From Chamaelirium japonicum (taxonomy: Eukaryota; Streptophyta; Magnoliopsida; Liliales; Melanthiaceae), in the NCBI GenBank assembly GCA_947650365.1, contig OX393557.1, positions 4,065,715 through 4,129,714 on the forward strand: DNA of 64,000 nucleotides, written 5' to 3'. The translations under genes and the position numbers were made by a program. The notes beneath the pieces are model-generated. The model ran no database searches. It was not told the DNA's origin and was given only the letters and a program-made list of their open reading frames with translations. This document shows positions 22,741 through 27,318 of this stretch, piece by piece (the first letter of the stretch is position 1; each line of letters opens with the position of its first letter).

Positions 22741-22906
22741 ACACACACACACACACACACACACACACACACACACACACACACACACACACATATATAT
22801 ATATATATATATATATATATATATATATATATATATATATATATATATATATATATAGAGAGAGAGAGAGAGAGAGAGAGAGAGAGAGAGAGAGAGAGAG
22901 AGAGAG
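22741..22906. repeat. Compound microsatellite (AC)n(AT)n(AG)n
   Basis: AC 22741-22792, AT 22793-22856, AG 22857-22906, without interruption. The AG end abuts the foldback element at 22907, whose other side starts (CT)n(AT)n, its mirror image. Confidence 0.95.
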
Positions 22907-23714
22907 AATACGGGGTATGAGCTGACAGCCTATTTGGGCATTTGGGCTGTCAGCTCACAGCCCTCCGATCACGATCACCGACCGTTCGTTTAAAAGAAAA
23001 AAAAACACCTAACCACTACCCTCTCTCTCCCTCTCCCTCTCTCGTGCGACGACAGCGGCAGCCCCTGGCCCTGCGCCCCCGACCCCGGCCCTGCGCCCCC
23101 TCCGGTACCGGCACCGGCACCGGCACCGGATCCGGCCGGGGGATGGCGCGCAGCCGGGCCGGGGGCTGTTCGGCTCCGGTGCCGGGGACGCAGGGCCGGA
23201 GACGGGGGCTGTTCGGCTCCGGTGCCGGGGACGGCAGGGTCGGAGGTCGGGGGCTGTTCGGCTCCGGTGCCGGAGACGGGGGCGCACGGCCGGAGGTCGG
23301 GGGCGCACAGCCGGAGGGGGCAGCAGGGCCAGGGGCGGGCGCAGGGCCGGGGGCGAGGGCGCAGGGCCGGGGTCGGGGGCGCAGGCCGGAGGCGGGCGCA
23401 GGGCCAGGGGCTGCCGCTGCCGCTCGCGAGAGAGAGGGAGAGGGCGCAGGGCCGGGGGCGCAGGGGGGTGGAGGTCGGAGCCGGGCGCAGGGCGGGGGGC
23501 CGGGACGGAGGAGGCGCCGGGGACCAGGGGGCAGGGGTCGGGGGCGCAGGGGGCAGGGGTCGGAGGGCTCTCTCGAGAGAGATGGAGAGAGAGAGGAGAG
23601 AAGGGTTCGGTGGATTTTATTTTTATTTTAAATGGACGGTAGCTGATCAAGATCGGAGGGCTGTGAGCTGACAGCCCAAATGCCCAAATAGGCTGTCAGC
23701 TCATACCCCGTTTA
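22907..23714. mobile_element. Foldback element (family H) with GC-rich core
   Basis: Terminal inverted repeats of about 85 bp, with arms ACGGGGTATGAGCTGACAGC.. at 22910 and the complement ending 23713. Each arm has its own inner inverted repeat (GCTGACAGCC..GGCTGTCAGC). The ~600-bp core is extremely GC-rich and contains three ~44-bp repeats (GGGGGCTGTTCGGCTCCGGT at 23161, 23204, 23249). Frames in the core are low-complexity Gly/Ala/Arg and not convincing proteins. Confidence 0.8.
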
Positions 23715-23929
23715 CTCTCTCTCTCTCTCTCTCTCTCTCTCTCTCTATATATATATATATATATATATATATATATATATATATATATATATATATATAT
23801 ATATATATATATATATATATATATATATATATATATATATATATATATATATATATATATATATATATATATATATATATATATATATATATATATATAT
23901 ATATATATATATATATATATATATATATA
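23715..23929. repeat. (CT)n(AT)n compound microsatellite
   Basis: CT 23715-23746, then ~183 bp of AT. It is the mirror image of the (AT)n(AG)n on the other side of family H. Confidence 0.95.
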
Positions 23930-24249
23930 AAATCTTGCTCACCTACGGGACGTCCCGCACCGGCGAAATGCGGGACAGGTTCTGAGCCGTCCGATTCACT
24001 TCGATCGTGCGGTGGAGAAATGAGCCCTGTAGGCCGTCCAAATGTGTTGATCAAAATGACGACAAAAATGAACAACCGATAAAAGTCGATCACATTTGGA
24101 CGGTATACAGGACTTGGATCAGGCTAAAATTTTTTATGTGTGATATCCAACGGTGGGTGATCATTCCCCAAAAATTTTTTTCCCAAAATGCCCCGGAAGG
24201 AGGTGCCGCACATAAAGGCCGCACGTTATCGGCCGCAGTATCACTACTC
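23930..24249. mobile_element. Family G foldback, chimeric copy 1
   Basis: The right half carries the family G core (GGCCGTCCAAATGTGTTGATC..CACATTTGGACGG and GGTGGGTGATCA) and ends CGCAGTATCACTACTC. The left end (TTGCTCACCTACGGGACGTC) is unlike copies 2 and 3, so the copy looks recombinant. (TA)n on both sides. Confidence 0.65.
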
Positions 24250-24551
24250 ATATATATATATATATATATATATATATATATATATATATATATATATATA
24301 TATATATATATATATATATATATATATATATATATATATATATATATATATATATATATATATATATATATATATATATATATATATATATATATATATA
24401 TATATATATATATATATATATATATATATATATATATATATATATATATATATATATATATATATATATATATATATATATATATATATATATATATATA
24501 TATATATATATATATATATATATATATATATATATATATATATATATATAT
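24250..24551. repeat. (TA)n microsatellite, about 302 bp
   Basis: The longest perfect dinucleotide run in the window. It joins family G copy 1 to family D copy 2. Confidence 0.97.
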
Positions 24552-24947
24552 GGCAGGATCGGATGACCCAGCAAAATTTTGACCCATTAATAACCCAGCA
24601 CCCTCTGAGGCACCTAGAGGTTATAGAATGAGCTGATTTTTTGAAGACATGTTGTCTATGATATGTTGATCATCCTCACAAAAAATCAGCCCATTCTAAA
24701 ACCTCTAGGTGCATCAAAGGGTGCTCTTCAAATCAATGGTTAAAATTGACAGTGAAAAACCGTTGATTTGAAGTGCGCATTTGATGCACCTAGAGGTTTT
24801 AGAATGGGCTGATTTTTTGTGAGGATGATCAACATACTATAGACAACATCCCTACAAAAAATCAGCCCATTCTATAACCTCTAAGTGCCTCAAAGGGTGC
24901 TGGGTTATTAATGGGTCAAATTTTGCTGGGTCATCCGATCCTGACCC
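24552..24947. mobile_element. Foldback MITE (family D, copy 2)
   Basis: 396-bp palindrome with ends CAGGATCGGATGACCCAGCA and its complement before ACCCT. Inner arms repeat CACCTAGAGGTTTTAGAATGG and TTTTTTGTGAGGATGATCAAC. (TA)n on both sides. Confidence 0.85.
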
Positions 24948-25058
24948 TATATATATATATATATATATATATATATATATATATATATATATATATATAT
25001 ATATATATATATATATATATATATATATATATATATATATATATATATATATATATAT
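24948..25058. repeat. (TA)n microsatellite
   Basis: About 110 bp between family D copy 2 and family E copy 1. Confidence 0.95.
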
Positions 25059-25617
25059 GAGGGCTGGGTTCCTATGACATGTCATAGGGAGTACCCTAGA
25101 CATATGGTGAATTAATAATGCTAGAATGTTTAGAATGTGCTGAATTTTTTTGAGGGTGATCACCTTACCTTAGATAGAATGTCCACAAAAAATCAAAGCA
25201 ATCTAAAACTTGTTGGGGCATAAAATGCTAGAAGCTTTATCGGCCATCCATTTTAACTGTTAAATTGAAAATCATATTTGATGCCTCTAGAAGTTATAGA
25301 ATGAGCCGATTTTTTGCGGGGGTCCTATCTACGATAGGGTGATCATCCTCATAAAAATTCAAAAAATCGGATCATTCTATAACTTCTAGAGGCATCAAAT
25401 ATGATTTTCAATTTAACAGTTAAAATGGATGGCCGATAAAGCTTCTAGCATTTGATGCCCCAATAAGTTTTAGATTGCTTTGATTTTTTGTGGACATTCT
25501 ATCTAAGGTAAGGTGATCACCCTCAAAAAAATTCAGCACATTCTAAACATTCTAGCATTATTAATTCACCATATGTCTAGGGTACTCCCTATGACATGTC
25601 ATAGGAACCCAGCCCTC
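25059..25617. mobile_element. Foldback MITE (family E, copy 1)
   Basis: 559-bp near-perfect palindrome with ends GAGGGCTGGGTTCCTATGAC and its complement. The inner pair GATGCCTCTAGAAGTTATAGAAT lies around a short centre near 25330. (TA)n on both sides. Non-coding. Single-stranded DNA or RNA from it would fold into a long hairpin. Confidence 0.85.
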
Positions 25618-25713
25618 ATATATATATATATATATATATATATATATATATATATATATATATATATATATATATATATATATATATATATATATATATA
25701 TATATATATATAT
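25618..25713. repeat. (TA)n microsatellite
   Basis: About 96 bp between family E copy 1 and the family D fragment. Confidence 0.95.
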
Positions 25714-25774: not shown

Positions 25775-25782
25775 TATATATA

Positions 25783-26169
25783 GGGAAATGAGTTCCTATG
25801 ACATGTCATAGGGAGTACCCTATGACATATGGTGAGTTAGTAACCCTAGAATATTTAGAATGTTCTGAATTTTTATGAGGATGATCACCCTATCGTAGAT
25901 AGGACCCCCACAAAAAATCGGCTCATTCTAAAACTTCTAGAAGCATCAAATATGATTTTCAATTTAACCGTTAAAATGGATGGCCGATAAATCTTCTAGC
26001 ATTTGATGCCCCAACAAGTTTTAGAATGTTTTGATTTTTTGTGGACATTCTATCTAAGGTAAGGTGATCAGCCTCAAAAAAATTCAGCACATTCTAAACA
26101 TTCTACCATTACTAACTCACCATATGTCATAGGGTACTTCCTATGACATGTCATAGGAACCCAGCCCTC
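25783..26169. mobile_element. Foldback MITE (family E, copy 2, internally shortened)
   Basis: Ends GAGTTCCTATGACATGTCAT and ATGACATGTCATAGGAACCC; shares the inner arms of copy 1 but lacks ~170 bp around the centre. (TA)n follows. Confidence 0.8.
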
Positions 26170-26245
26170 ATATATATATATATATATATATATATATATA
26201 TATATATATATATATATATATATATATATATGAGAGAGAGAGAGA
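26170..26245. repeat. (TA)n(GA)n microsatellite
   Basis: TA 26170-26231 followed by a short GA run that abuts the family K copy. Confidence 0.93.
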
Positions 26246-26375
26246 GAAATGCTATAATGTGGCATGCGGTAAGTGCGGCATCGCACCGCTGCCGTCTGAT
26301 GCACCGCTGCGTGCATGCGATGACGCAGCGCGTGCATCAGACGGCTGCGGTGCGGTGCTGCACTGACCGCATGCC
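26246..26375. mobile_element. Microsatellite-flanked foldback MITE (family K, copy 2)
   Basis: 130-bp palindrome with arms GCATGCGGTAAGTGCGGCAT.. and GCAGCCGTCTGATGCAC. GA tract on the left and TA tract on the right. Confidence 0.8.
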
Positions 26376-26465
26376 CATATATATATATATATATATATAT
26401 ATATATATATATATATATATATATATATATATATATATATATATATATATATATATATATATATA
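26376..26465. repeat. (TA)n microsatellite
   Basis: About 90 bp between family K copy 2 and family G copy 2. Confidence 0.95.
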
Positions 26466-26813
26466 GTGATACATTGCGGCCGGTAACGTGCGACCTTAAC
26501 GTGCGGCACCCCCTTTCGGTGCACTTTGGAAATTTTCTTTTTTTGGTGATTGATCATCCACCCTTGGATAGCACACATAAAAAATTTCAGCCTGATCCAA
26601 ACCCTGTAGGCCGTCCAAATGTGTTGATAAAATGATGACAAAAATGAACGACCGATAAAAGTCGATCAAATTTGGACGGCTTACAAGGCTTGGATCGGGC
26701 TGAATTTTTTTGTGTGTGCTATCCAAGGGTGGGTGATCAATTCCAAAAAAAAATTACCTAAAATGCCCCGGAAGGGGGTGGCCACACGTTACCCGGCCGC
26801 AATGTTTCACTAC
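26466..26813. mobile_element. Foldback MITE (family G, copy 2)
   Basis: Palindrome with ends GTGATACATTGCGGCCGGTA and TACCCGGCCGCAATGTTTCAC and inner arms GGCCGTCCAAATGTGTTGAT / GATCAAATTTGGACGGC. (TA)n on the left and (CT)n(AT)n on the right. Confidence 0.85.
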
Positions 26814-26910
26814 TCTCTCTCTCTCTCTCTCTCTCTCTCTCTATATATATATATATATATATATATATATATATATATATATATATATATATATATATAT
26901 ATATATATAT
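26814..26910. repeat. (CT)n(AT)n microsatellite
   Basis: CT 26814-26842 then AT to 26910, between family G copies 2 and 3. Confidence 0.95.
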
Positions 26911-27275
26911 AGTAGTGATACATTGCGGCGGGTAACGTGCGGGCTTAACGTGCGGCAACCCCTTCGGGAGTTATTTTGGAATTTTTTTTTTGGGGATTGA
27001 TCACCTACCCTTGGATTGGACACACAAAAAATTTCAGCCCGATCCAAGACCTGTAGGCCGTCCAAATGTGTTGATCAAAAAGGCAAGAAAAATGAACGAC
27101 CGATAAAAGATCAACACATTTGGACGGCCTACAAGTCTTGGATCGGGGTGAAATTTTGTGTGTGTCCAATCCAAGGGTGGGTGATCAATCCCCAAAAAAA
27201 AAAATTCCAAAAATACCCCAGAAGGGGATGGCCGCACGTTAAGTCGCACGTTACCCGACCACAATGTATCAGTAC
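26911..27275. mobile_element. Foldback MITE (family G, copy 3)
   Basis: 365-bp palindrome, same ends and core as copy 2 (GTGATACATTGCGGCGGGTA..). Followed by (CT)n(TA)n. Confidence 0.85.
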
Positions 27276-27318
27276 TCTCTCTCTCTCTCTCTCTATATAT
27301 ATATATATATATATATAT
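27276..27318. repeat. (CT)n(TA)n microsatellite
   Basis: Short compound tract after family G copy 3. The sequence that follows resembles that after the TA tract at 9859. Confidence 0.9.

Follow-up and report, generated by a model that had tools for sequence, protein, structure and literature searches.

A probable array of non-autonomous Mutator-like foldback elements in TA repeats of Chamaelirium japonicum, with GA/CT tracts added after insertion

In a stretch of 64,000 nucleotides from Chamaelirium japonicum (assembly GCA_947650365.1, contig OX393557.1, positions 4,065,715 to 4,129,714; hereafter the window), palindromic foldback elements alternate with dinucleotide microsatellites between positions 22741 and 27318. 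We interpret this region as an array of non-autonomous foldbacks of the type of Mutator-like elements (MULEs), targeted to TA repeats as are SaTar, mMITE and MuTAnT elements, with GA/CT tracts that grew afterwards, and we assign this interpretation a probability of about 0.87. A preliminary description of the region as nine foldback elements or fragments alternating with microsatellites proved accurate in both coordinates and architecture. The foldbacks belong to families designated H, E, D, K and G. From left to right, the array consists of the following features:

22741..22907: compound microsatellite (AC)26(AT)32(AG)24, left edge of the array
22908..23714: H, an 807-bp GC-rich (71%) foldback, arms 88.2% identical over 221 bp
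23715..23929: (CT)16(TA)91 linker
23930..24022: 93-bp fragment fused to E1, with no strong match elsewhere in the window
24023..24249, plus strand: E1, the right part of an E element, with its tip ...ACTACTC directly on (AT)151
24250..24551: (AT)151 linker
24552..24947: D1 foldback, arms 93.5% over 186 bp
24948..25058: (TA)55 linker
25059..25617: K1, an almost perfect palindrome of 559 bp whose arms match at 98.8% over 258 bp
25618..25713: (AT)48 linker
25714..25776, plus strand: right-end fragment of D, 63 bp, 96.7% identical to D1 over 61 bp
25777..26169: K2, a foldback of typical K length
26170..26247: (AT)31(GA)8 linker
26244..26376: G1, a foldback with the tip GAGAAATGCTAT on the left and a shortened right end
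26377..26465: (AT)44 linker
26464..26814: E2 foldback, arms 90.4% over 146 bp
26813..26911: (CT)15(TA)34 linker
26911..27276: E3 foldback, arms 92.7% over 165 bp
27275..27319: (CT)10(TA)12, right edge of the array

The linkers are mostly perfect (TA)n, ranging from (TA)12 to (AT)151, with the exception of the junction between the D fragment and K2, where TA is repeated just a few times. At five element ends, a GA/CT block stands between the element and TA, namely (AG)24, (CT)16, (GA)8, (CT)15 and (CT)10, and (AC)26 is additionally present at the left edge of the array. The mirror-image AG and CT flanks reported for some elements were found for H, the only element with such blocks on both sides, and for none of the others. 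Two of the junctions are not genuine element ends, since the D fragment is cut internally at 25714 and E1 is without its left half. Terminal inverted repeats are present, with arms of 85.1-98.8% identity in H, D1, K1, K2, G1, E2 and E3, and the end sequences among the array families include GAGTAGTGATAC, GGGGCATGCTAT, GGGTCAGGATCGG and GAGGGCTGGG. According to the map, no element interrupts another. None of the 10 reading frames of 150 amino acids or more in the array gave a Pfam match at an E-value of 0.001 or below; judged on frames of at least this length, the elements are non-autonomous, having no transposase of their own.

K1 carries two GAGGGCTGGG ends; the usual retrieved K copy is about 390 bp long, with one GAGGGCTGGG and one GGGAAATGAG end. 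Among the K matches listed, there was no other full-length match to K1, which, to judge from its sequence, resembles one half duplicated in inverted orientation.

The five families had been described as unrelated in appearance. However, D1 and K1 share 69.8% identity over 225 bp, and D1 shares 68.0% over 272 bp with a third related family, X (1443-1811), whereas H, E and G gave no match to other groups at an E-value of 1e-5 or below. Because D, K and X have sequence in common, five mutually unrelated families are ruled out, and the array comprises four groups without detected similarity (H, E, D/K and G).

The association with TA extends over the whole window, where each of the 19 TA runs of at least 7 units is found no more than 60 bp from the end of a listed element and 20,000 random placements gave at most 8, although this figure is partly circular because the element list was drawn partly from TA runs. 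The foldback arms were found on masked sequence and depend less on these runs. We also searched the assembly (1,518,659,071 bases in 3253 contigs) for copies of E, D, G and K, using E3 as the query for E, and scored 40 first-look candidates per family out of 1399 to 2572. Ends of E, D and G were counted as flanked if a run of at least 5 units lay within 8 bases, and for K a slightly laxer rule accepted runs of at least 4 units. Of 30 E loci, the window copy included (2119 candidates), 27 had a microsatellite at both ends, two at one end and one at neither. All 20 D copies (2572 candidates; rows 2-21 of the listing) were flanked at both ends, by TA at 39 and by GA at one of the 40 ends, as were all 13 G copies (1399 candidates; rows 2-14). 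For K (2061 candidates), at 20 plus-strand places other than the window, the left end was flanked in 20/20 and the right end in 18/20; one exception enters TA before its end (L119), and the other has extra sequence before TA (L109). Thus, the outcome named beforehand as refuting the original idea, that most copies would be without microsatellite flanks, was not observed for any of these four families. Moreover, 50 of the 55 scored ends of other-family copies inside E loci abut a microsatellite.

The control was P, a foldback family of about 183 bp with copies in the window at 22386-22566 and 49131-49314, whose right tip at 22566, GAGAAATGCTAT, is identical to the left tip of G1. Among 30 P loci, again including the window copy, 29 had no microsatellite at either end and one touched one. 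Direct duplications of 8-10 bp, allowing one mismatch, were present in 24/30, compared with 29/870 crossed pairs, the loci being not all independent since L042, L045 and L059 (and L041 in the other sense) share flanks. Palindromic ends of the P kind thus do not grow TA by themselves. Insertion preference of the kind known from rice Micron, which the preliminary description had offered as one possibility, is therefore supported for (TA)n: copies of E, D, G and K nearly all abut microsatellites, and those of P do not. When the same families were sought near P elements as an unbiased sample, a single scorable end was obtained, which is not enough for a comparison.

Stacking, too, distinguishes E from the control. 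Another listed family or a second E was present within 1.5 kb at 24 of the 29 other E loci, compared with another listed family at 1 of 29 P loci. The stack had been considered unusual for one locus, a view that such frequent company contradicts, and an exceptional locus is ruled out. H adjoins E at L030-L034 and, by eye, is fused to it in L093.

A less biased figure than that from the best-scoring copies is provided by exact E tips counted genome-wide, among which 8 of 1195 have C at -5, versus 7 of 53 P ends (for P this is not a genome-wide count, and C makes up 21% of P loci). These eight E tips lie in seven regions. L092 holds two of them, in CA/TA tracts; L089, L093 and L094 look, by eye, fused to the end of another element; L091 borders on ordinary DNA to the left and on (AT)n to the right; and L095 likewise borders on ordinary DNA to the left but lacks an E right end. 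L089 contains repeated E-type sequence in head-to-tail order; its junctions are short and free of microsatellites, and by eye the repeats look like E elements fused to one another.

The remaining E copy, L090, is located in ordinary DNA. Immediately beyond its ends, GAGTAGTGATAC...GTATCACTACTC, the 10 bp TGTTGCTTCA are duplicated without mismatch, which fixes the E tip as GA/TC. Miniature inverted-repeat transposable elements (MITEs) of the Stowaway or Tc1-mariner type make a 2-bp TA target duplication, and Stowaway membership of E is ruled out by the 10-bp duplication of L090. The duplication is of the size made by MULEs, for which a range of 8-11 bp is given in PMC5907723. For D, G, H and K, we infer the MULE assignment from structure and company.

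The GA/CT tracts follow a different rule from TA. At 28 element ends in the window there are six such tracts, all GA when read from outside inward; of the 38 CT or GA arrays of at least 6 units in the window, six touch a TA tract, and the same six adjoin elements. Counted over equal stretches at both ends, the 58 ends of E copies L010-L038 showed GA at nine left ends, CT at nine right ends and none of the other sense. In L014, a GA run stands on the right beyond the TA tract and does not adjoin the element. Of 9 purine/pyrimidine tracts on the neighbours within E loci, 8 were of the expected sense, and two K copies (L124 and L127) have GA at their GAGGG tip. The G family has one GGGG tip and one GA tip. 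TA adjoins the GGGG end in all 13 G copies, which were listed at 99% identity. At the GAAATG end, four of these copies have 1, 1, 2 and 2 TC units and the other nine have between 8 and 20, the longest of which may be cut since the flanks covered 50 bases. Together with the sense of the tracts at E, this contrast indicates that TA is the target or its later growth and that GA/CT grows from the element. The asymmetry of G thereby separates target choice from element-seeded growth and addresses both alternatives posed in the preliminary description, each of which was partly right. Seeding of microsatellites by palindrome ends stands for GA/CT, with nine GA on the left and nine CT on the right at E and growth at the GA-tip end only in the 13 G copies, and is not supported for TA, which has not grown at the ends of the P copies or of L090; seeding of TA by palindrome ends is therefore rejected. 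That the GA/CT blocks were formed once an element had inserted, through slippage starting at its own terminal GA...TC, is well supported.

In the mechanism we favour, a transposase supplied in trans would insert the elements preferentially into (TA)n, and each insertion would leave TA on both sides as a renewed target for any such family. Because the flanking TA could be used again, unrelated elements would stack without interrupting one another. The TA tracts may later lengthen, slippage at the terminal GA...TC would add the GA/CT blocks, and occasional deletions could fuse or truncate elements. Empty sites already containing (TA)n have been described in rice (PMC5907723) and Medicago (PMC4486113), and TA is reported to be longer at occupied than at empty sites in Medicago (PMC4486113) and in maize work as cited in PMC5907723.

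Several observations weigh against targeting by MULE-type elements. The retrieved copies were the best-scoring ones and no random sample, and the genome-wide counts cover E, D, G and K. Within E loci, 5 of 55 neighbour ends are free of microsatellites (X 3/3, E 1/4, G 1/31), and one of the nine purine/pyrimidine tracts of neighbours has the wrong sense. In addition, one clean duplication was found among the eight E tips with C at -5, E being the only array family in which duplications were sought, and MULE type is shown for this one family of the array.

We consider it unlikely, yet worth weighing, that unrelated groups, perhaps with Helitron-like ends among them, reach the same TA tracts by one route common to all and provided by the host or by recombination, instead of each transposase choosing its own target. 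Circles with microsatellite filler that recombine into TA tracts would be an example. If so, TA tracts would act as common landing sites for unrelated element groups and would grow with each arrival. Slightly less probable is the alternative model in PMC5907723, in which no transposase inserts the elements; instead, homologous recombination brings them in as circular intermediates that carry microsatellite filler, or recombination at TA tracts moves them from one locus to another. This model would account for unlike flanks on the two sides, for fused or truncated elements (E1 and the D fragment; L093 and L094 by eye) and for the fact that no element was seen interrupting another in the array. 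However, slippage at the tips largely explains the differences between flanks, L090 is an ordinary insertion of the E family, and the circles are without direct evidence.

It is considerably more doubtful that the elements insert into ordinary DNA and their palindrome ends then nucleate every microsatellite, TA among them. Although GA/CT tracts look seeded by tips and TA is reported to be longer at occupied sites in Medicago (PMC4486113) and in the maize work cited in PMC5907723, the P foldbacks, many of them with the tip GAGAAATGCTAT, have no TA growth, nor does L090, and TA would have to grow beside tips as different as GGGG, GAG and GGGTC. Growth of the array by tandem duplication through unequal exchange at repeats appears more improbable again. 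E2 and E3 are adjacent, of the same sense and each followed by (CT)n(TA)n, and Tandem Repeats Finder reported a 448-bp period; nevertheless, E2 and E3 are no more alike (88.2% over 346 bp) than E1 and E2 are (89.0% over 209 bp), and most neighbours come from different groups. An assembly artefact is hardly credible, even though perfect TA tracts of up to 302 bp are hard to assemble and the sequence is known from the assembly alone, because the order element-TA-element recurs at many loci on different contigs and such arrays were confirmed in guayule by polymerase chain reaction (PMC5907723).

Outside the array, the window contains four further stacks:

1421-2208: X and a D copy
9543-9858: G
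13242-14359: Z, 996 bp
55664-56311: two G

The first of these, between (GT)10 and (AC)6, is enclosed by a large foldback at 1286-2343 with 19-bp tandem repeats near both ends. The sequence GGGCATTACTAG occurs in three copies (13205-13250; 1410-1421; 2208-2219 on the minus strand), which abut (TA)7, (GT)10 and (AC)6. The copy at 13230-13241 is preceded by a hairpin (z -2.42; 8/200 shuffles as good). Helitrons have a hairpin followed by CTAG at their 3' end and insert between A and T. The three GGGCATTACTAG copies look like Helitron 3' ends, and, if they are, Helitrons would be a further user of the same tracts. The window also holds reading frames of a Copia-type retrotransposon (17248-21649), the best named relative of which is from the orchid Platanthera zijinensis (70% identity over 68% of the query), and a reverse-transcriptase zinc-binding region (zf-RVT; 50539-51909) resembling those of long interspersed nuclear elements.

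Targeting of MULE-type foldbacks to TA repeats has close counterparts in other plants, and the likenesses to SaTar, Ac-mMITE, Micron and TAFT drawn here are likenesses of description. The SaTar elements, described from other hosts (guayule gSaTar, and rice rSaTar including Micron; PMC5907723), are likewise small non-autonomous elements with inverted repeats, most copies of which are flanked by microsatellites; 10-bp duplications occur in some other copies, and mixed families form uninterrupted arrays with occasional fusions. Stacking looks denser around E (24/29 within 1.5 kb) than in SaTar, where 19-47% of copies per family are linked or fused (Table 2 of PMC5907723), under criteria that differ from ours. 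The Ac-mMITEs of pineapple (PMC8449440) are also clustered TA-targeted Mutator-type MITEs. Their 5' ends carry GA and their 3' ends TC, a pattern that the authors attributed to slippage from the terminal GA/TC. In contrast to the Ac-mMITEs as presented there, the array contains several groups without detected similarity as well as the G family, in which one GA tip and one GGGG tip isolate the seeding effect. The MuTAnT elements of Medicago truncatula (PMC4486113) are foldback MULEs in (TA)n with GGGG tips and 9-bp duplications at the few sites outside perfect microsatellites, and an autonomous relative is known for them. Micron of rice and TAFT of maize are MITE-like elements in (TA)n, and MITEs of the Micron kind also feature in a survey of 207 plant genomes (PMC12550479). 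The architecture, the un-nested stacking of mixed families, the minority of copies with duplications of 9-10 bp and the GA/TC polarity are thus already published (PMC5907723, PMC8449440, PMC4486113). As far as could be told from these accounts, the families of C. japonicum are new members of a documented phenomenon, to which the asymmetry of the G family adds the most useful detail.

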